Origin: Planktomarina temperata RCA23
GTDB lineage: Bacteria; Pseudomonadota; Alphaproteobacteria; Rhodobacterales; Rhodobacteraceae
Direction of reading: 5' to 3'
Length of the DNA stretch: 64,000 bases
Assembly: GCF_000738435.1 (NCBI RefSeq)
Contig: NZ_CP003984.1
Span: forward strand, 2,480,001-2,544,000
The notes under the pieces are model-generated. The model was not told where the DNA came from, did no database searches, and saw only the letters and a program-made list of their open reading frames with translations. A program made the translations under genes and the position numbers. Positions within the stretch are counted from its first letter, which is position 1; each line of letters begins with the position of its first letter. Of this stretch, positions 6,495 to 38,814 are shown one piece after another.

Positions 6495-6630
6495 AAGCTG
6501 TCAAACTAATGAGAACACGCATCAGATTGCTAGCACAGCCTAAATCTATGCGCTCGGTAATTGACGCCTCTCAGTAAGAGCGGCGGCGCGGTTTAGCTTG
6601 AAGTTGGTGCGTGAATAGAGATGGCGAGCC
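6494..6630. mobile_element. IS6-family left-end remnant (copy A, IS part)
   Basis: About 135 bases closely resemble 6876-7010, the left end of the intact IS6-family element. They start with the terminal repeat variant GAAGCTGTCAAACTAATGAG and run through the 3' end of the transposase gene up to the GCGTGAATAGAGATGGCG segment. The rest of the transposase is missing and the next bases are the structured repeat. It begins inside the helicase stop codon. It is probably the left third of a non-autonomous derivative (see 25631-26022 and 31776-32048). Confidence 0.78.
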
Positions 6631-6768
6631 CCCCAACAAAATTACCCCCAAATGACTTTACAAGGCTAATACTAAAGCCCCGTGGTCCGAGACGCGGGAG
6701 CCTAAAATGGGGGTCCCCGTTCCTAGGTCCTGCGCCTCAGCTGTAGGGATTAGGCGCAGTAACCCCTG
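6631..6768. repeat. Dispersed structured repeat, copy A
   Basis: Non-coding GC-rich segment found three times in the window (here, 25631-25774 and 31906-32048). The shared core is GTGGTCCGAGACGCGGG in the middle and GCAGTAACCCCTG at the end, preceded by a CTAATACTAAAG lead. This copy is the most diverged in the 3' arm of its predicted hairpin. It directly abuts the IS6-family left-end remnant, exactly as copy C does. I see no reading frame conserved between the copies. Confidence 0.75.
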
Positions 6769-6875
6769 ATTAACTCTGTTTTGATCTGATGTTTCATTGT
6801 GGGTAGCGTTGTGGGTAGAAATTTTATCTTATTATAAATATAAATTTAATCAGCTACTTAATTGGTATATGTGGC

Positions 6876-7692
6876 GGTGCTGTCAGACGAATGAGAACTC
6901 GCATCGGATTGCTGGCGCAGCTTTAATCTATGCGCTCAACAGTTGGCGCCACTCAGTAAGAGCGGCGGTTCGATTGAGTTTGAAATTGTCTCGTGAGTAG
7001 AAGTGGCGCTCCTGATTGAAATGGTTGTGGACTGAAGAGTGGACGGCAGCGAACTTTTGCAGACATCGCATCTGTCGAAAGCGGAGCATAGCGCGTTCTC
7101 GTCGTCGAAACGGCAAGTGGGAATTCTCAGCCCGATTATTTACCCAGCGACCCGTTTCCTGCCGATCCGCGTTGCCAACAACTTTCATTGCAGCGCCATA
7201 GGAACGTAGTTTGTCCGTCACAACTACTTCTGGCCCGCCGTAGCGCTTCATTGCTTTTCTGAGGAATTTCAATGCTGCCTTGCGGTCTCGGCGCTTGGTT
7301 ACATAACTTTCAAGCACCTCACCTTCGTGATCAACGGCCCGCCAGAGGTAATGCGTCTCTCCGTTGATCTTCACGAAGACTTCGTCCAGGTGCCACTGCC
7401 AGTTCGAATACGATCGCATCCTACTGACCCGGTTTCTTCGTATCTCAGCAGCAAACATCGGACCAAATCTATTCCACCAAAACCGAACTGTTTCGTGGCT
7501 GATCTCAATGCCTCGTTCGTGCAGAAGATCTTCAACATTACGGAGTGAGAGCGGAAAACGAACGTACAGCATCACAGCCAAGCGGATGATCTCAGGGCTC
7601 GTTTTAAAGTACCTGAATGGGGAGTGTTTTGTCATACGGAGAGGCTACGAAACCGCCCGCCCCGTCTCAAGTTGGTTTTATCTGACAGTACC
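6876..7692 (-). mobile_element. IS6-family insertion sequence, complete
   Basis: An 817-base element bounded by imperfect inverted repeats: GGTGCTGTCAGAC at the left and GGTACTGTCAGAT (complement) at the right. It carries one transposase on the minus strand filling nearly the whole element, as usual for IS6 members of roughly 800 bases. The flanking eight bases differ (TATGTGGC at the left, TAATTCGC at the right), so the expected target duplication is not seen; a later rearrangement at one flank would explain this. It lies between repeat copy A and the sugar island. Confidence 0.85.
6928..7635 (-). CDS. IS6-family transposase
   Basis: DDE transposase of 235 residues, intact and of usual length for the family. 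It catalyses replicative transposition forming cointegrates. The sequence begins MTKHSPFRYFKTSPEIIRLA, followed by a helix-turn-helix (SLRNVEDLLHERGIEISHETVRFW). The catalytic triad is visible as Asp in WHLDEVFVKI, Asp in VVTDKLRSYG and Glu in NRAENSHLPFRRRE. The start ATG at 7635 lies about 57 bases inside the right terminal repeat. This is the only potentially active transposase in the window and could mobilise the three non-autonomous relatives. Confidence 0.9.
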   Translation of the reverse strand: MTKHSPFRYFKTSPEIIRLAVMLYVRFPLSLRNVEDLLHERGIEISHETVRFWWNRFGPMFAAEIRRNRVSRMRSYSNWQWHLDEVFVKINGETHYLWRAVDHEGEVLESYVTKRRDRKAALKFLRKAMKRYGGPEVVVTDKLRSYGAAMKVVGNADRQETGRWVNNRAENSHLPFRRRERAMLRFRQMRCLQKFAAVHSSVHNHFNQERHFYSRDNFKLNRTAALTEWRQLLSA

Positions 7693-25630: not shown

Positions 25631-25774
25631 AATGGCAGTAAACAAAACCCCCGTCCAATGAAACTACAACGCTAATACTAAAGGCCCATGGTCCGAGACG
25701 CGGGGCACTGGGATTGGGGGCCCCGGTCCATGGTCCTGAGGCTTAAATGTAGGGATTAGGCACAGTAACCCCTG
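25631..25774. repeat. Dispersed structured repeat, copy B
   Basis: Copy of the repeat also seen at 6631 and 31906, with core GTCCGAGACGCGGGGC and end GCACAGTAACCCCTG. The arm AGGCCCATGG (25682-25691) can pair with CCATGGTCCT (25728-25737), one mismatch in ten. Copy C pairs the equivalent arms with different bases. Homology to copy C begins at AATGGCAGTAAACAAAAC. Confidence 0.75.
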
Positions 25775-31775: not shown

Positions 31776-31905
31776 GGTGCTGTCAGACGAATGAGAACAC
31801 GCATCGGATTGCTGGTGCAGCCTGAATCTATGCGCTCAATAATTGGCACCACTCAGCGAGAACAGCAGCTCGGTTCAGCTTGAAACTAGTGCGTGAATAA
31901 AGATG
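31776..31905. mobile_element. IS6-family left-end remnant (copy C, IS part)
   Basis: The terminal repeat GGTGCTGTCAGACGAATGAG is almost identical to that of the complete IS at 6876. The following 3' transposase sequence continues for about 130 bases up to GCGTGAATAAAGATGCAG, and then the structured repeat begins. The arrangement is the same as in copy A. It is 78 bases downstream of the glutamine synthetase-like gene. Confidence 0.8.
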
Positions 31906-32048
31906 CAGTTACCAAACAAAACAATCCCCCAATGAATCCACTAACCGAACACTAAAGGCCCGTGGTCCGAGACGCGGGGCCTTATGATAGGGGGGGCTGG
32001 TCCGCGGGCCTGAGGCTTAGCTGGAGAAATTGGGCACAGTAACCCCTA
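31906..32048. repeat. Dispersed structured repeat, copy C
   Basis: Same core as copies A and B (GTCCGAGACGCGGGGCC, end GCACAGTAACCCCT). The arms AGGCCCGTGG (31956-31965) and CCGCGGGCCT (32002-32011) pair along all ten positions, with one G-U wobble. In copy B the corresponding positions use A-T pairs instead. The right half of the element, including the IS right end, is missing. Confidence 0.75.
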
Positions 32049-32259
32049 CTTTTCAGCGGTCAAATATCTGCACATCAGACGCTGCGACATAGTTACGGCA
32101 CTAAACAAGGCTTCAGTTCGAAATGATGTGTGAGTTGTGGCTTGCCTAGGCGCACCAAATAGCAACTTAGTCAGACTAACGATGAAACCTAAGTGAAACC
32201 TTTTTGGCACAAAGTCACTGATGATTACGCCAACATATCCGCTAAGTTATTGATTTAAG
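32049..32259. other. Spacer without recognisable gene
   Basis: Between repeat copy C and the tRNA-Thr fragment I see no supported reading frame, hairpin or repeat. It belongs to the accessory debris. Confidence 0.4.
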
Positions 32260-32312
32260 TGGTGCCCCCACACGGACTCGAACCGCGGACCTACTGATTA
32301 CAAATCAGTTGC
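32260..32312 (-). tRNA. 3' fragment of tRNA-Thr(UGU), probable attachment-site remnant
   Basis: The minus strand gives the anticodon arm ACTGA-TTTGTAA-TCAGT (anticodon UGU, Thr), variable region, T arm CGCGG-TTCGAGT-CCGTG and acceptor 3' strand ending in encoded CCA at 32260. The 5' side should supply GCCCCCA and a D arm, but the sequence there is only a degenerate echo (AGTTTTTATGGGCAACTG). It is not a functional tRNA gene. Such 3' fragments are typical of element ends integrated in tRNA genes; the partner tRNA-Thr is not in this window. Confidence 0.8.
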
Positions 32313-32408
32313 CCATAAAAACTCACACCACAGTTCAAATGGAATCGCATTTGCCAATAAGAGCAATCAAGCTATTTTTACGCATGATTAAATCAGTCTG
32401 AGATATAC

Positions 32409-33053
32409 ATGAAAGCCAATTTGAACTTCAATCGCCGCCAATGGCTCGCTGCTACTTTTGGATTTTTGGCCACCTCAATAGCCAGCCCCATACTCGCACA
32501 AACAAGAATTCGCCGCATCCGAACTCAATATATCGCAGCGCTTGGAGCCGAGGGCGCTACTTCAGGAACAGGCGCGGAAACGTGGGGTCTTTGGAAGGAA
32601 GATCCTGGTGCAATTGGCGTATGGCTTAGGCTCTATCAGACACTCCAAAAGGCGGGTAATTTGGCCCCTGCCGGCTGGAGGTTTGACATTGATGATTGGT
32701 GGCTGGATGAGAACGGCCTGATCATGAAGGCTCCAGAATTTCCAATCCCTGCTGGGCAGTATTTTGTTACAAATGGTGAGGAACACTTCTCTTTACTCAC
32801 CATCGAAGAGCCCGATGCAGAAGGGAAACAATCTTGGTCACTGTCAGACGATAAAACACTTGCGAATGTGACCCATGGGCCATGTAGATCAGCGCGGTAT
32901 ACGCCCGAGGGTGAAAGTGGCACATGTTCGCCAGAATTCGCAGACCGCTCTGCGTTCCCTTTAAAGCCAGGGGAATCACCTCCTTTAGTCAGCGGATGCA
33001 ATCGAAAAAATTATGCGGTTTTAATTGTGATTGGTGTACCTTCCACAAGTTAA
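32409..33053 (+). CDS. Hypothetical protein with Tat-type signal peptide
   Basis: A 214-residue protein I do not recognise. The N-terminus MKANLNFNRRQWLAATFGFL has a twin-arginine motif (RRQWLAATFG) followed by a hydrophobic segment and a cleavage-like SPILAQ, so export through the Tat system is likely. The mature part is acidic with several tryptophans (WGLWKEDPGAIGVWLRLY, FDIDDWWLDENG) and cysteines in HGPCRSAR, GTCSPEFA and VSGCNRKN. It resembles a small secreted or periplasmic binding or protective protein. It stands alone between the tRNA-Thr fragment and the phage-like cassette, and may be cargo. Confidence 0.7.
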   Translation: MKANLNFNRRQWLAATFGFLATSIASPILAQTRIRRIRTQYIAALGAEGATSGTGAETWGLWKEDPGAIGVWLRLYQTLQKAGNLAPAGWRFDIDDWWLDENGLIMKAPEFPIPAGQYFVTNGEEHFSLLTIEEPDAEGKQSWSLSDDKTLANVTHGPCRSARYTPEGESGTCSPEFADRSAFPLKPGESPPLVSGCNRKNYAVLIVIGVPSTS

Positions 33054-33220
33054 TTTTCTGATACAGCTTACTATTGTTCATTTTGCGATCGATCATAATT
33101 AAATCGCTTTGGATTGAACCTATTTAATGGTATTATTGAAGCGTGCAGTGTGCATGACGAGCTAATTTGGCTCGTGTATAGCTTCAAGAATGAAGCCCTA
33201 AATCAACGGAAGGAGTTGGC

Positions 33221-34510
33221 ATGTTGCTGACCACTTGTTCGTTGGGTCTTGGGGAGCTTCGTTCTTCAAACTCAACACCTCACAAACACTCTCAACGCCA
33301 AATTAAAAAGGCAAAGGACCTCTTTGCAAAACAAGGCATCGTTGTTCCTATTATTGTGGACGAACACCATCACATAATTGATGGGCATCTTCGGTTCATG
33401 GTGGCGCGGGAACTTGGCATCGAAAACCTCAACGCAGTTATTGTCTCTAAGGCATCAAGCGCCAAGATTATCGAACTGGAATTAGCCCTCAACCGCCTTG
33501 GAGAAGACAGCAACTGGGATGAGGCACGCTTAAGGGAAAAGCTAGAGCAGCTCTTAGAGTTCGATGTTGATTTGAGCTTCACAGGGTTTGAACAAGCTGA
33601 GATTGATAAAATACTTCACTTTGAAATTATTGATGAGGCCGAACAAGATTGGGGCGGCACAGACCCCGTAACAAGGCCGGGCGATATATGGCGCGTTGGC
33701 GACCACATCATTGCCTGCGTAGACGCATTATCACCAGAAGTGGCTTTAAGCGAACTGGATAACCCGCCTTTGGCCAAAGTCTGCGTAACAGACCCTCCAT
33801 ACAATGTGCCAACAAAAGGTCATATCAGAACCAGCCATGATCATCAGGAATTTGCCATGGCTGCTGGCGAGATGTCAGACGCAGAGTTCGAGGAGTTCCT
33901 AAACGCATTTCTAAGATCAGCTCTCAACCTTACAACAGACAAGGCCCTTTTCTATGTCTGTATGGACTGGCGCCATATCGACCTTTTGAACGCAGCCGCA
34001 AAGACACAACGACTGACGCCCCAGAACTTGTGTGTTTGGGCCAAGACAAATGCAGGGATGGGATCGTTTTATCGCTCACAGCATGAATTGGTTGCTGTCT
34101 ACAGCCGAGCTAAAACCTTCCAAAATAATATCAACCTCGGAGCAAGTGGCCGATACCGGACAAATGTTTGGCACTATGATGGCGTAACCAGCTTTGGCCC
34201 CACACGAACCGAAGATTTAATAGATCACCCTACCGTAAAACCCACCCAGCTGATTGCAGACATTATCTTAGATTGTACCTCGATCGGTGACTGGGTGTTG
34301 GATCCATTTTTAGGGAGCGGCACCAGCTGCCTCGCTGCAGAGCGGATTAATCGCCGCTGTCTTGGGCTGGAATTAGAACCCAAGTTTGTCGATGTCGCTC
34401 TCAAGCGGCTTAAAGAAAGATGCAGCTTAGACGCCGTTCATGTTCAGACGGGTAAAAGCTATGCTGACATTAGCAGTGAGCGCCTCACAAAGAGTGAGGG
34501 CGCAGCATGA
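33221..34510 (+). CDS. ParB-like domain plus DNA methyltransferase (N6-adenine/N4-cytosine type)
   Basis: A 429-residue two-domain protein. Residues about 1-130 form a ParB/Srx-like nuclease-fold domain (IIVDEHHHIIDGHLRFMVAR; GHLR is the family signature). Residues about 150-420 form a methyltransferase whose catalytic motif VCVTDPPYNVP precedes the SAM-binding motif LDPFLGSGTSCLAAERINRR, the beta-class order. It begins the cassette and overlaps the next gene by four bases. No restriction endonuclease gene accompanies it, so it is an orphan modification enzyme, as common in phages and mobile elements. The start is ambiguous (33221 is the ATG with an AGGAGTT site seven bases upstream). Confidence 0.88.
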   Translation: MLLTTCSLGLGELRSSNSTPHKHSQRQIKKAKDLFAKQGIVVPIIVDEHHHIIDGHLRFMVARELGIENLNAVIVSKASSAKIIELELALNRLGEDSNWDEARLREKLEQLLEFDVDLSFTGFEQAEIDKILHFEIIDEAEQDWGGTDPVTRPGDIWRVGDHIIACVDALSPEVALSELDNPPLAKVCVTDPPYNVPTKGHIRTSHDHQEFAMAAGEMSDAEFEEFLNAFLRSALNLTTDKALFYVCMDWRHIDLLNAAAKTQRLTPQNLCVWAKTNAGMGSFYRSQHELVAVYSRAKTFQNNINLGASGRYRTNVWHYDGVTSFGPTRTEDLIDHPTVKPTQLIADIILDCTSIGDWVLDPFLGSGTSCLAAERINRRCLGLELEPKFVDVALKRLKERCSLDAVHVQTGKSYADISSERLTKSEGAA

Positions 34511-34890
34511 CTTATGGGAACCCTCCAAAAAAACATCAGTTCATAAAGGGCCAGTCCGGCAATCCAAAAGGCCGCCCACGCAAAAAATTGCAAACCGGCA
34601 CCACTCTCGCCGATGACCTGAAGCGCGAGCTTAGTGAAGAAATTACGGTCAAGAAAAATGGAGAGACCAAGCGCGTTACCAAGCAAAGCGCTTTAATATC
34701 TTCAATAGCAACCTCGGCAATAAATGGCGGCAGTAGCCAGCAACGCCTCCTTGTCCAAATTCTAAGCATGTCTGGCATGGACAAAGACAACCCCATCGAC
34801 GCTAAAGAGCTCCAGAGACATGACGAAGCTCTCTTGTTGGAATTGCAGAAACTTGGTTTTAAAATTGATGAGGCTGATCATGACACATAA
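34507..34890 (+). CDS. DUF5681-domain protein
   Basis: A 127-residue protein starting in an ATGA overlap. Its N-terminus GNPPKKHQFIKGQSGNPKGR is the defining motif of DUF5681, a family regularly found just before phage terminase large subunits in alphaproteobacterial elements. The body is charged and helical (KRELSEEITVKKNGETKRVT). It may act as the DNA-recognition (small terminase-like) partner, but this is an inference from position; no function is established. Confidence 0.82.
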   Translation: MTYGNPPKKHQFIKGQSGNPKGRPRKKLQTGTTLADDLKRELSEEITVKKNGETKRVTKQSALISSIATSAINGGSSQQRLLVQILSMSGMDKDNPIDAKELQRHDEALLLELQKLGFKIDEADHDT

Positions 34891-36313
34891 CATAAGCCAG
34901 AGGACTTTAGACGCCCTTCTTCGGCGGTCGCCCAGCCTGTTCTTCACGCATCTGTTTCCAAAGATCGATACGGTTCGCGACTTTGAGTGCTCGTGGCACC
35001 TTCATGCCATAAGCCAGCATTTGCTTGAGATGTATCATGGCACATGTCTGCGCTTGATCGTTAACGCTCCGCCGCGCTCGTTAAAGACCTCTTTGGCAAA
35101 CACCTATTTTATACCTTGGCTGCTTGGACAGGATCCAACCACCAAAGTCATGGTTGTCACCTACGGCGATGACCTTTCTTCAACACTCGCAAAAGCCACG
35201 AAGAAAGTGTTTCTGCATCGTGAATATAAGAGAATCTTTCCACACACCGTTTTAGAAAATGACAATATGCAAGCCACTAGGTTGCGCACATCACAAGGTG
35301 GCCATGTTATCTTCACCTCCCTCCATGGAGTGATGACCGGCCTTGGTGCAGATTGGATTATCCTCGATGACCCCCTACAGGCGGCCCATATGCGATCTGA
35401 GACCCGCCAGGATGATGTCATCCAAGTGTTTAAGCAAAGTATCAGCACGCGCCTCAACACTCCAAAGGACGGTAAAATCCTTCTCGTACAGCAACGCATC
35501 AGCCCAAATGATTTGTGCGGCGCATTAACTGACGTGCCCGCACATCCTTGGAAGGTTTTATGTCTGCCAGCCCGCTTTGATGAGCCAGCCCAATTTTATT
35601 TAGGATTCTCTAAGTGGAAAGATGTCGCAGCAGGGGATCTTCTAACACCTGCGCGAATGCCAGAGGCTTTTCTCAATGAGAAAAAAGCTGAGATGGGCGA
35701 TGCAGCCTATTATGCGCAGTATTTACAAAAGCCTCTTCATGAGAGCGACTGTCCGATTGATTTTAAGAAAATTAAGCACATCAGTAGGGAGGAGTTTGAT
35801 GAAATCAGTCTTGCACCCACAATTTATCAAAGCTGGGATACGGCGCTCTCGGACAAACCATCCGCCGATTATTCTGCAGTAACAACTTGGGCAAAGTTTG
35901 AGGATGGCCGTTATGTATTGCTTGATGCAGCGCGCTACCGCGTCACGAGCGAAAAACTTCAGAGCATAATCGTGCAGAAAGCGTTGGCGCATTCCGCACG
36001 ATTTGTCTGCATTGAAAAGGCAAATCATGCGGCTGATCTTATTCGAATGGTCGCGCCTGAGATGCCGGATGGGTGCATTGTGAGATCCGTACCAACAGGT
36101 GGAACCTCTAAAATGCAGCGGCTGGAGGCACAGCTGCATAAGATCAACACTGGCAAAGTGTTCTTCTTAAGTGACGAGCCGAACCTTGAGCTTGTTAACA
36201 ATGAGCTGCGGCAATTCCCGAATGGACGCTATGATGACCTGGTCGATAGCTTCTCACAGGCGCTTGCTCAAATGGGGACTGGCAGCGGCGTACCAGTTTG
36301 GCACATTAGCTGA
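34880..36313 (+). CDS. Phage terminase large subunit
   Basis: A 477-residue DNA-packaging motor and nuclease. The ATG at 34880 lies within the preceding gene, which ends at 34890. The ATPase half has a Walker A-like NAPPRSLKTSLANT and Walker B DWIILDDPLQ; the adapter motif follows in LLVQQRISPNDL. The nuclease half contains the acidic residues in YQSWDTALSDKPSAD, LLDAARYRVTSE and GRYDDLVDSFSQAL. The protein appears complete. It is remarkable that no portal, protease or capsid gene follows; the next genes are DUF2924 and a recombinase. Confidence 0.87.
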   Translation: MTHNISQRTLDALLRRSPSLFFTHLFPKIDTVRDFECSWHLHAISQHLLEMYHGTCLRLIVNAPPRSLKTSLANTYFIPWLLGQDPTTKVMVVTYGDDLSSTLAKATKKVFLHREYKRIFPHTVLENDNMQATRLRTSQGGHVIFTSLHGVMTGLGADWIILDDPLQAAHMRSETRQDDVIQVFKQSISTRLNTPKDGKILLVQQRISPNDLCGALTDVPAHPWKVLCLPARFDEPAQFYLGFSKWKDVAAGDLLTPARMPEAFLNEKKAEMGDAAYYAQYLQKPLHESDCPIDFKKIKHISREEFDEISLAPTIYQSWDTALSDKPSADYSAVTTWAKFEDGRYVLLDAARYRVTSEKLQSIIVQKALAHSARFVCIEKANHAADLIRMVAPEMPDGCIVRSVPTGGTSKMQRLEAQLHKINTGKVFFLSDEPNLELVNNELRQFPNGRYDDLVDSFSQALAQMGTGSGVPVWHIS

Positions 36314-36427
36314 GATTGATAGATCTGAAACTTTGGACTGGACTACGCCCCAACCGTAAGCCTGTATGCTCCTAAGCTCGAATACCATCGGGCTTTGCTC
36401 AGTGACAATGATCACAAGGAGCAAAAT

Positions 36428-36823
36428 TTGGACCCCTCATTTGAAACTTTAAAAACCGCAAGCCGCGCTGATCTCATTGATGCATGGCGCAAGGCTATCG
36501 GCAGGCCGGCGCCAAAACACATTAGTCGATCACTTTTGATCACCGTTCTTTCTTTTGAGCAGCAGGCAAAACAGTATGGGAGGCCAAACCAAAGGTTCCG
36601 CCAAGCCTTAGAGCGCCAAGTTAGCGGCAAAGCCTCCAAGCCCAAGCTGCAATCAGGAACGCGGTTTGTACGCGAGCATCATGGCAAGACCCATGTTGTC
36701 GAAGTAGACGCGGCGGGGGCCTTTATCTGGCAGGGCAAATCCTTTGCATCCCTATCTCAGGTCGCCAAGCAGATATGCGGCTATCACTGCTCCGGACACA
36801 AGTTCTTCGGGGTGACAAAATGA
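36428..36823 (+). CDS. DUF2924-domain protein
   Basis: A 131-residue protein. I place the start at the TTG at 36428 because AAGGAGCAAAAT precedes it; the open frame begins at 36395. The sequence shows DUF2924 traits: LKTASRADLIDAWRKAIGRP, then RSLLITVLSFEQQAKQYGRP, then GTRFVREHHGKTHVVEVDAA. Members are paired with large serine recombinases in many alphaproteobacteria and may assist recombination, but the mechanism is unknown. It ends in an ATGA overlap with the recombinase gene. Confidence 0.84.
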   Translation: MDPSFETLKTASRADLIDAWRKAIGRPAPKHISRSLLITVLSFEQQAKQYGRPNQRFRQALERQVSGKASKPKLQSGTRFVREHHGKTHVVEVDAAGAFIWQGKSFASLSQVAKQICGYHCSGHKFFGVTK

Positions 36824-38436
36824 GTTCAGCCCCACGTCAAAAAATCCGTGCAGCCATCTATACGCGAAAATCTAGGGAAGAAGGTCTCGAGCAGGAGTTC
36901 AATTCTTTAGACGCCCAACATGAGGCCTGCGCGGCCTACATTACCAGCCAACGACATGAGGGCTGGAAACAATTAAAGGGCCGCTTCGATGACGGAGGGG
37001 TATCAGGAGGAACTATGGATCGCCCTGCACTCACGCGCCTTTTGGCGGATGTAGATCAAGGCCTGGTTGATATGATCGTTGTCTATAAGATCGACCGATT
37101 GACGCGCTCCTTGAGCGACTTTGCCAAATTAATTGACCGGCTGGAGGCGAAGGGCTGCTCTTTTGTGTCCGTGACACAATCTTTTAATACGTCGACATCC
37201 ATGGGGCGCCTAACACTGAATGTGCTTCTATCATTTGCTCAATTTGAGCGTGAAGTCACAGCCGATCGCATTCGCGATAAAATTGCGGCCTCAAAAAAGA
37301 AGGGTATGTGGATGGGCGGCCGGGTGCCCTGGGGATACGCCATTCATCCCGATCCAAAGGTTCAATCCTTAGAGATACATCTCGAGCACGCCAAAGATAT
37401 CCAACGGATATATGATCTATACGAGGAACTTGGATGCTTAGCGCAGGTTAAAAGCCAAATTGATAGCCTATGGCCAGAGCGCAATTATAGCCGTGGCCGT
37501 ATCTATAAAATCTTAACCAACCCAATCTATATTGGTAAGATCCGCCACAAGACCGACATCTATGAAGGCCTTCATTCCGCCATCATCGATGTGGCGCAAT
37601 TTAACCGGGTTCAAGAACAGCTCAAACTCAAATCAGCCATCAAACGTGGGACCCACCCTACGCGAGGATTGTCCGCCTGCTTGATCGGAAAAATCTACGA
37701 CGAGACTGGAGATCGCCTTACGCCCTCCAACACAAAACGTGTGGGCCGTATGCATCGATATTACTACTCCAATCGCCTGACGATCAAAGGCGCTGACCCA
37801 ACAGGCTGGCGCATCAAGGCAGAGACACTTGAGACGGCTTTATCCTCGATGGTAAAATCCAATCTTATGCAGGCCTGCCAAAATCCTGACATCAAAGATG
37901 GCCTCACAGCTCATGAGCTTACCCAATACATAAGTTGTATAGACACACTGAAGTCCCAAGCAGCATTGAAGCTCATCTCTCGCGTAGATTTAACCAAAGG
38001 CAATATAACGATCGCCATTAATCAAAAGGAGCTTGAGAAGCTTCTACAATGCTCTTCAAACCTAATAGAGGCAGAGCGATTAACATTTAACGAACCCATT
38101 ACATTCCAACGCAGGCAAAATGGTACAAAGCTTTTCTGGGCCCAATATGAAACAGGCCCGAGACTGCATCTCATCAAGGCCCTTCACGATGCTCACACCT
38201 GGCTCGACCTGTTAAAATCCGGCAAACAGATTACCGACATTACTCAAGCCACAGGACTTCTCGACGGGACTATTTGGAAGCGTGTTCGGCTCGCATGTCT
38301 GTCGCCAAAAGTTCAAAAGGCCATCCTTAACGGAACATTAAATCCAGAGTTCACCATTCGCTATTTGCAAAGCAAGCGTGTGCCTGCAACCTGGGTTGAA
38401 CAAGACAAGCTCTTAATCAGTAAAGTTCCCTGTTAA
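36820..38436 (+). CDS. Large serine recombinase (site-specific integrase)
   Basis: A 538-residue recombinase starting at the ATG at 36820. The resolvase catalytic domain contains the nucleophile in AAIYTRKSREE, the arginine-rich KIDRLTRSLSDF, FDDGGVSGGTMDRPALTRLL and LNVLLSFAQFERE. The recombinase domain follows (IYKILTNPIYIGKIRHKTDI). The usual cysteine zinc ribbon is replaced by DETGDRLTPSNT. The protein ends KVPC. The stop codon itself lies within the first of a set of TTCCCTGTTAAT repeats. It would integrate or excise the cassette at a short att site that this window cannot identify with certainty. Confidence 0.88.
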   Translation: MSSAPRQKIRAAIYTRKSREEGLEQEFNSLDAQHEACAAYITSQRHEGWKQLKGRFDDGGVSGGTMDRPALTRLLADVDQGLVDMIVVYKIDRLTRSLSDFAKLIDRLEAKGCSFVSVTQSFNTSTSMGRLTLNVLLSFAQFEREVTADRIRDKIAASKKKGMWMGGRVPWGYAIHPDPKVQSLEIHLEHAKDIQRIYDLYEELGCLAQVKSQIDSLWPERNYSRGRIYKILTNPIYIGKIRHKTDIYEGLHSAIIDVAQFNRVQEQLKLKSAIKRGTHPTRGLSACLIGKIYDETGDRLTPSNTKRVGRMHRYYYSNRLTIKGADPTGWRIKAETLETALSSMVKSNLMQACQNPDIKDGLTAHELTQYISCIDTLKSQAALKLISRVDLTKGNITIAINQKELEKLLQCSSNLIEAERLTFNEPITFQRRQNGTKLFWAQYETGPRLHLIKALHDAHTWLDLLKSGKQITDITQATGLLDGTIWKRVRLACLSPKVQKAILNGTLNPEFTIRYLQSKRVPATWVEQDKLLISKVPC

Positions 38437-38581
38437 TGCCTATTTAATTCCCTGTTAATTTTGCCCAGCGCGCTTCTAAACACCAATAATTTATGGCTAT
38501 TACAGCGTTTTTAGACATTTCCAAAACCCAAAAAAAGAAAATTCCCTGTTAATTTCCCTGTTAATTGCAAACAACAGGGAA
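38426..38581. repeat. Cluster of TTCCCTGTTAAT repeats at the recombinase end
   Basis: The 12-mer TTCCCTGTTAAT occurs four times in direct orientation: 38426, 38448, 38542 and 38554. An inverted partial copy (AACAGGGAA) lies at 38573-38581. The first copy covers the last codons and stop of the recombinase. Spacings are 22, 94 and 12 bases, so the sites lie on comparable helical faces for the first pair. This suggests a recombinase-binding or attachment region. No TTCCCTGTTAAT copy was seen near the left end of the cassette. Confidence 0.72.
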
Positions 38582-38737
38582 ACTCGTGCTGCCTAAATAT
38601 TGCCTCAGAGGAATAGGTTGAAACGGGGTAATTCTCGCGCGAGAGAAAATCCTCAGATCAAAAATCTGAAAATAACAGCCTGAAAAGACGGGTATAAAAA
38701 CCGGTTATATGAAGCTGTTGGATGTGAGATAAGTCAG

Positions 38738-38814
38738 TGGCGGACCGAGGAGGATTCGAACCCCCGACCCCCTGATTCGTAGTCAGGTACTCTATCCAGC
38801 TGAGCTATCGGTCC
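38738..38814 (-). tRNA. tRNA-Arg (anticodon ACG)
   Basis: Complete 77-base cloverleaf on the minus strand: acceptor GGACCGA/TCGGTCC, D arm GCTCAGCTGGATAGAGT, anticodon arm CCTGA-CTACGAA-TCAGG with anticodon ACG, T arm GGGGG-TTCGAAT-CCTCC, discriminator G and encoded CCA. Its 3' end faces the phage-like cassette, the usual orientation when an element integrates next to a tRNA gene. Confidence 0.95.

Follow-up and report, generated by a model that had tools for sequence, protein, structure and literature searches.

The window analysed here, a stretch of 64,000 nucleotides of Planktomarina temperata RCA23 (positions 2,480,001-2,544,000 of a single-contig genome of 3,288,122 bases), carries a compact cassette of phage-like genes that raises the question of what a DNA-packaging motor does next to an integrase and without a capsid. 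Five intact open reading frames (ORFs) lie on the plus strand in the order ParB-fused methyltransferase, DUF5681 protein, terminase large subunit, DUF2924 protein and large serine recombinase, as a preliminary description of this DNA had claimed, with ORF, Pfam and PHROGs evidence in agreement. The same description had noted the absence of portal, capsid and tail genes, and none of the five proteins matched such a family in Pfam, PHROGs and further family searches; the portal and capsid genes that stand with the terminase in a complete prophage were not found at this cassette. The sequence comparisons presented below give good support to a unit, with two copies in this genome and further ones in many alphaproteobacterial families, whose insertion site is the 3′ end of a tRNA gene. 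Judging from the genes alone, we tentatively favour, at a little under even confidence, an integrative element that brings its own packaging start and motor and borrows capsids.

A second full copy of the unit (6.5 kb, 94% identical) was found 83.5 kb upstream in the same genome. In both copies the left edge is the 53-bp 3′ half of a tRNA-Thr gene and the right edge is the 3′ end of a tRNA-Arg gene, the homology between the two copies ending on the right with the 19 bp TCAGTGGCGGACCGAGGAG. The reported position of the block at the 3′ side of a tRNA-Arg was thus borne out, this tRNA lying on the minus strand with its 3′ end toward the cassette. On the right, copy 1 is followed by the intact tRNA-Arg and copy 2 by genes that by eye resemble a tyrosine integrase and replication genes. 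The whole unit, including a sixth ORF of 214 amino acids that lies outside the range first described and moves with the unit, was also found in a divergent Planktomarina genome (G199), where the same tRNA-Arg carries it as an insert of 6.5 kb. The repeat flanking this insert is imperfect (21 of 27 bp of the tRNA-Arg 3′ end), with a degenerate copy on the left and the intact end on the right, their starts 6468 bp apart. The left flank of the G199 insert corresponds to the flank that lies uninterrupted beside tRNA-Arg in a further genome, G210, which therefore represents the empty site. The comparison of empty and filled sites that the preliminary description had called for places the putative ends of the element at the two copies of the 27-bp repeat, and the G199 locus is built, in its sequence, like an integrated element whose empty site is seen in a related genome. 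Since a second copy exists and the tRNA-Arg insert has both a repeat and an empty site, the data support a mobile element; to this extent the earlier proposal of a satellite-like or transfer element holds, while its other half, the borrowing of virions, is something we infer. Traces of decay were also seen: in G207 just the recombinase end is left at this tRNA, and in G209 about 135 bp of the right end lie at another place. Identity to G199 is alike for the cassette (72%) and its neighbours (70%), which fits an old insertion.

The ratio of non-synonymous to synonymous substitution (dN/dS, Nei-Gojobori method) between the two copies of this genome was 0.057 for the sixth ORF, 0.094 for the methyltransferase, 0.26 for DUF5681, 0.28 for the terminase, 0.15 for DUF2924 and 0.17 for the recombinase. 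Comparison of copy 1 with G199, in which DUF5681 and the recombinase were saturated, gave 0.05-0.10 for the four computable genes (0.046 for the sixth ORF and 0.087 for the methyltransferase), values that are rough because the distances to G199 are near saturation; the neighbouring host histidine kinase gave 0.08. At the sequence level, maintenance of the genes by purifying selection is well supported. The two copies differ at synonymous sites by 0.26-0.29 on the left and by only 0.08 in the recombinase gene (window 32409-38436 against L009 4871-10900), a pattern that would be expected if the right part had been made uniform by gene conversion or recombination, and the two recombinases are 97% identical.

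The recurrence of the cassette was studied through a search with the terminase only in 385 alphaproteobacterial genomes. At a cut-off of 1e-30, matches were obtained in 45 genomes (own genome included) at 55 places, two of them in the own genome, and the neighbourhoods of 40 of the 53 remaining places were opened. The methyltransferase was present in 25 of these 40, representing 22 genomes, and DUF5681 accompanied it in all 25; 17 of the 25 loci carried DUF2924, 15 carried both DUF2924 and the recombinase, and none carried a portal-like gene. Among the 15 other neighbourhoods, which lack methyltransferase and DUF5681 by definition because the two groups were formed by the presence of either gene, a portal-like gene was found in 11, eight of them contributing genes to the portal queries and thus matching by construction (L358, L359 and L368 did not); one of the 15, L346, carried DUF2924 and the recombinase. 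A further 35 loci, picked by similarity and required to show a visible terminase (four end at it), included 28 with all five genes and again none with a portal-like gene. The condition of being always embedded in full prophages, raised earlier as what would make this copy a mere remnant, was therefore found neither in the 25 loci with methyltransferase, DUF5681 and terminase nor in the 35 further ones. With profiles built from proteins of this analysis, all five families occurred together in 28 of 182 loci, a figure that is not a rate because the loci had been collected as those resembling the terminase, the recombinase or the methyltransferase; a few contigs were counted twice, and the DUF2924-recombinase pair was found without the other three families in 52 of them.

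Downstream of the terminase in 14 loci without methyltransferase, a PHROG scan of 28 ORFs returned portals and head proteases, and downstream of the shell-less terminases (75 ORFs) no portal or head family was among the 25 of 106 families listed (each group table lists 25 families). Two PHROG families whose function is not known, 10315 (7/75 ORFs) and 31231 (6/75), recur at this position. A scan of 92 of 98 flanking ORFs near 21 loci, 49 of them also with PADLOC, gave matches to enzymes of the host, to genes for transposition, to a number of defence genes and to capsid- or pyocin-like phage genes; DUF3489 was matched by 2 of 49. The viral contig L137 holds the same five genes in the same order and strand beside the apparent end of an acyl-CoA synthetase gene, and on two Sphingobium plasmids methyltransferase, DUF5681 and terminase have metabolic genes as neighbours, although on the second plasmid the terminase is in pieces. 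A single DUF5681 query against a phage collection yielded three records, one of them strong (4e-18); this record is a scaffold of 5.4 kb from human faeces, labelled 'Bacteriophage sp.' and unverified, on which all five genes are present. A profile search of genome contigs with the terminase alignment, using narrow patterns, returned only two close relatives. Five viral contigs (L150, L163, L164, L169 and L178) show two tandem recombinases, mostly each with its own DUF2924, as if elements had accumulated at a single site.

In a first terminase tree, with 56 shell-less terminases, 14 from loci without methyltransferase and eight from phages, the shell-less label required three changes. A second tree, from which the long-branch row L380_P was left out and in which L364 was relabelled (its contig ends just upstream of the terminase), separated 57 shell-less terminases, a group that includes L346 with DUF2924 and recombinase and no methyltransferase, from 20 others on one branch with support of 89/67 and in 91% of 200 bootstrap trees. 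The shell-less terminases are thus set apart from the portal-linked ones with modest support, and this split makes a single origin of the shell-less terminases likely. By the same sequence evidence, the recurring cassettes probably form one lineage.

The genes of the cassette are tightly packed (Table 1). The preliminary description had given overlaps of 4, 11 and 4 bases, which is right for the later start codons of terminase (34880) and recombinase (36820); counted from the first ATGs the overlaps are 4, 71 and 49 bases. The later starts are plausible because the G199 recombinase ORF begins at the matching methionine. An 81-base gap separates the terminase and DUF2924 genes.

Table 1. Features of the cassette and its borders, in window positions
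Feature	Position	Strand	Evidence
Counterpart of the sequence downstream of tRNA-Thr(TGT) in G210	31787..32259		window 32312-31787 vs L123 7454-7978: 85%, 526 bp; G209 L124: 74%
3′ half (53 bp) of tRNA-Thr(TGT) gene	32260..32312	minus	100% identical to G000:C1:428856-428908, within an intact ARAGORN tRNA-Thr (L095 6834-6909)
Element proper, about 6.4 kb, inferred ends	32313..38737		most of the stretch common to both own copies and G199
214-aa ORF, twin-arginine-like N-terminus, likely cargo	32409..33053	plus	no Pfam match; in both own copies and the G199 insert
ParB-fused N6/N4 DNA methyltransferase, 429 aa	33221..34510	plus	Pfam, PHROGs, 5hek and 6pbd matches
DUF5681 protein	34507..34890	plus	Pfam PF18932, 4.1e-21
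Terminase large subunit (ATPase motor and nuclease), 497 aa from first ATG, likely start 34880	34820..36313	plus	phrog_38, conserved residues
52-bp conserved leader ahead of and into DUF2924	36354..36405	plus	common to other DUF2924 loci
DUF2924 protein, C-terminal part predicted RAMA-like DNA-binding domain	36395..36823	plus	Pfam and structure model
Large serine recombinase, likely start 36820	36775..38436	plus	Pfam, PHROGs, 3bvp match
53-bp conserved stretch downstream of recombinase gene	38530..38582		91% at G000:C1:1176110-1176162; 87% in G208:C11
tRNA-Arg (ACG), 3′ end = attachment side	38738..38814	minus	right homology edge of the copies; G199 insert in same tRNA

The individual proteins were then assigned by family and structure matches. 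The methyltransferase matched N6_N4_Mtase in Pfam (1e-30) and the ParB-like phrog_620 (7.5e-28), with further matches to DpnA (5hek, 2e-14) and CcrM (6pbd, 1.7e-13). The density of GATC is 5.9 per kb in the element and 7.4 in the window, and that of GANTC 0.6 and 1.4 per kb, respectively. The terminase was recognised by phrog_38 (1.7e-76), Pfam Terminase_6C giving only 3.9e-4, below its cut-off. Its PPRxxK and DD motifs and residues D340, E399, D473 and D476, which we take to be the Walker A, Walker B and nuclease residues expected of a phage large terminase, are invariant in 23 member sequences, in accordance with the apparently intact packaging motor described earlier. DUF5681 stands, by analogy with the gene order of Streptococcus phage Javan181, in the slot of the small terminase subunit of a phage methyltransferase-terminase locus; an assignment as small terminase by fold found no support, the predicted fold being without a match in the PDB. 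For DUF2924 (Pfam, 4.2e-28), residue blocks 91-140 of the structure model reached a predicted local distance difference test (pLDDT) value of 90-95, and the highest Foldseek probabilities were those of MPND (7ydw, 0.97) and CcrM (6pbd, 0.90), with weak E-values (0.11 and 0.62) and with SH2 and other folds in between. This model suggests, with weak scores, a RAMA-like domain in the C-terminal part, in line with a remark in PMC11342252, in the passage concerned, that RAMA partly matches DUF2924. The recombinase matched Resolvase (1.4e-38) and Recombinase (1e-8) in Pfam and the TP901-1 integrase (3bvp, 1.6e-22). The 214-aa ORF, whose N-terminal motif we take to be twin-arginine-like, has relatives elsewhere in the genus, as separate copies in G198, G199, G208, G211, G213 and G214.

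Related sequences are present at other places of the genome. The 52-bp leader was found at 83% identity at G000:C1:1178277-1178328 and 2621995-2622046, at 78% in G210:C1 and at 79% in G201:C107. The first of these places belongs to a lone DUF2924-recombinase pair without packaging genes (L010 8258-10317; G000:C1 about 1176257-1178316, minus strand), which has the same leader and the 53-bp downstream stretch (91%), a recombinase 61% identical and a matched gene part at 71%. A truncated DUF2924 with the same leader lies at L011 8008-8367. Directly to the right of the second copy, and joined to it at the 19-bp tRNA-Arg end, an ORF that by eye resembles a P4-type tyrosine integrase is followed by ORFs that look primase- and helicase-like (L009 11362-16414; G000:C1 about 2435361-2440413). 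Similar tyrosine-integrase-like ORFs, also identified by eye, occur beside tRNA-Thr in the own genome (L095 6971-8125), beside tRNA-Arg in G209 (L085 9639-10784) and at L010 103-1269; a very large ORF is likewise present in L095 (1091 aa) and in L010 (1077 aa) and is partly repeated in L011. A dispersed repeat of about 270 bp at window 31776-32047, found also at about 6497-7008 and 25640-25774, recurs at many places in the own and related genomes, several of them beside an ORF resembling an insertion sequence (IS) transposase.

We then compared the cassette with known systems. SaPI-type PICI and P4-like satellites carry a tyrosine integrase and a replication primase; the unit has a serine recombinase, and no primase was found among the family matches of its proteins. 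A large serine recombinase is in use in PLE 1, as stated in part of PMC6002521. With phage satellites in general (SaPI-type PICI, capsid-forming PICI, P4, PLE, PICMI and VEIME; sections of PMC10690885 and PMC10803314) the cassette shares the plan of an integrative element that is small and has an incomplete set of virion genes; it differs from them in that a large terminase subunit is present, capsid and portal are absent, and no gene for replication or capsid redirection was recognised. Capsid-forming PICI are described in a section of PMC10690885 as having capsid, protease, portal, connectors and both terminase subunits, and of this set the terminase is present here, portal and capsid not being found among the matches of the five proteins. 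A likeness to the first three genes is seen in the ParB-terminase (ParB-Tls) loci of phages such as Javan181 and Paracoccus prophages (PMC6536676, in part), in which a ParB-type methyltransferase stands directly ahead of the terminase genes and, for the Paracoccus loci, the ParB part has been suggested to guide modification during packaging. In Javan181, the methyltransferase matches that of the window over residues 8-399 and is followed by TerS and TerL, with a portal five genes on, whereas the loci studied here show no portal-like gene and continue with the DUF2924-recombinase pair, defence or host genes. A recombinase directly downstream of DUF2924 is likewise known from a Wolbachia phage WO region (PMC10299305, in part); here the pair stands beside a shell-less packaging trio. 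The cassette is thus satellite-like in outline and fits none of the satellite kinds compared, and no description of the five-gene set was found in the titles and abstracts returned by searches of open papers. Integrative mobilizable elements combine their own integrase and a DNA-processing start with a borrowed transfer channel, using relaxase and conjugation; the likeness to them is an analogy only, with terminase and capsid taking these places here.

In the element that we tentatively favour, with its own packaging start and motor, the serine recombinase would excise and insert the element, DUF5681 would mark the packaging start on or next to it, and the terminase would pump element DNA, perhaps together with neighbouring DNA, into the capsids of a passing helper phage. 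The ParB-fused methyltransferase would mark the packaged DNA, as proposed for the phage ParB-terminase loci, and DUF2924, RAMA-like and usually next to the recombinase, may steer recombination, possibly by reading the methyl mark. By analogy, such an element would stand to transduction as mobilizable elements stand to conjugation, with its own start site and motor and a borrowed channel.

Several observations weigh against this interpretation. No particle, excision or helper was seen, and a search of the own genome for Phage_portal (PF04860), the one portal family searched there, gave no match, so that a resident helper with this type of portal is lacking. Family matches revealed no recognisable gene for replication in the element, whereas phage satellites use their own replicases according to a section of PMC10690885. 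The absence of a PDB match for DUF5681 and the weak E-values behind the RAMA reading of DUF2924 concern two of the proposed roles; moreover, the function of RAMA as a reader of N6-methyladenine (6mA) is disputed and 6mA did not alter MPND binding in one study (both from parts of PMC9963953). Within the stretch seen and with the cut-offs applied, DUF2924 was missing from 8 of the 25 loci and the recombinase from 10, in some cases because of contig ends. The window copy has tRNA-Thr at its left end and tRNA-Arg at its right end, which one simple integration does not yield; its left flank corresponds to the flank at the tRNA-Thr gene in G210, and our guess is that the mixed ends may reflect a later rearrangement between two sites. 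Structural genes were found a few genes beyond the recombinase in two contigs, a major capsid protein in L143 (PDB match, 7.8e-29) and a relative of a pyocin R2 protein in L146 (6.9e-24). Both contigs are cut off inside DUF5681 and, with no terminase visible, were not among the 35 further loci, so that they may represent either a full prophage with the module or an element beside a prophage. When 80 viral contigs were collected through their match to the methyltransferase, a portal-like gene was present in 12 of the 67 that matched below 250 bits and in none of the 13 above, and the methyltransferase is common beside the terminase in Paracoccus prophages, with 36 ParB-methyltransferases upstream of terminase genes (PMC6536676, in part). 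Given L143, L146 and the phages with a similar methyltransferase-terminase order, a strict rule of never occurring with a shell does not hold.

Three other explanations were considered. The one that survives best, which we nevertheless regard as unlikely, is a module for defence or phage interference, in which the methyltransferase would protect own DNA, DUF2924 would read the mark, and DUF5681 and terminase would either attack unmarked DNA as a translocating nuclease or poison the packaging of phages, with the recombinase providing mobility. The combination of a methyltransferase, a DNA-reading domain and a motor-nuclease follows the logic of restriction systems, and PADLOC labels the methyltransferase as type II (5.4e-58); at 0.001, however, it returned no match for terminase, DUF5681, DUF2924 or recombinase. 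Among the flanking ORFs, 49 from 14 loci gave matches to ZorC, type I restriction, GmrSD, capP, RmrA and HEC-06, and 43 from seven other loci to Vsr, a C5 methylase and a caspase-like peptidase, enrichment being an impression since both sets lack a control; these genes may, on the other hand, be mere cargo, and phage packaging loci have the same succession of methyltransferase, small-subunit slot and large terminase. Somewhat less probable still is a domesticated DNA-processing unit, whose terminase and DUF5681 would serve recombination, repair or copying of the element without capsids. A helper that is not known, the lack of a recognised replication gene and the frequent recombinase pair (15/25) are compatible with it, but the motor and nuclease residues are kept and we know of no precedent for a capsid-free domesticated terminase unit. 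A deletion remnant of an ordinary prophage, to which the phage-family matches of all five proteins, the decay in G207 and G209, the structural genes in L143 and L146 and the real phages with a like gene order (Javan181, the Paracoccus prophages, the 12 portal-bearing viral contigs) lend caution, is very improbable and was set aside, since a private remnant is at odds with the second copy, the clean-ended G199 insert, purifying selection, the grouping of the terminases and the lack of a portal-like gene in all 25 surveyed loci with methyltransferase, DUF5681 and terminase.

A broader form of the capsid-borrowing interpretation seems possible to us and is more doubtful than the element itself, namely a widespread 'transduction-mobilizable' lineage with its own packaging start and motor, a methylation writer, a DNA-reading recombinase partner and borrowed capsids, which may ferry neighbouring defence genes from one alphaproteobacterium to another and whose excision could be gated by its own mark. 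With this cassette one could also test whether a reader of DNA marks steers a serine recombinase. Even if its use were defensive, a terminase lineage active without capsids over many bacterial families would be unexpected. If self-packaging is true, this would be a form of phage parasitism whose parasite contributes the packaging motor and leaves the shell to the phage, and the movement of defence genes in abundant marine bacteria could in part be explained by it.

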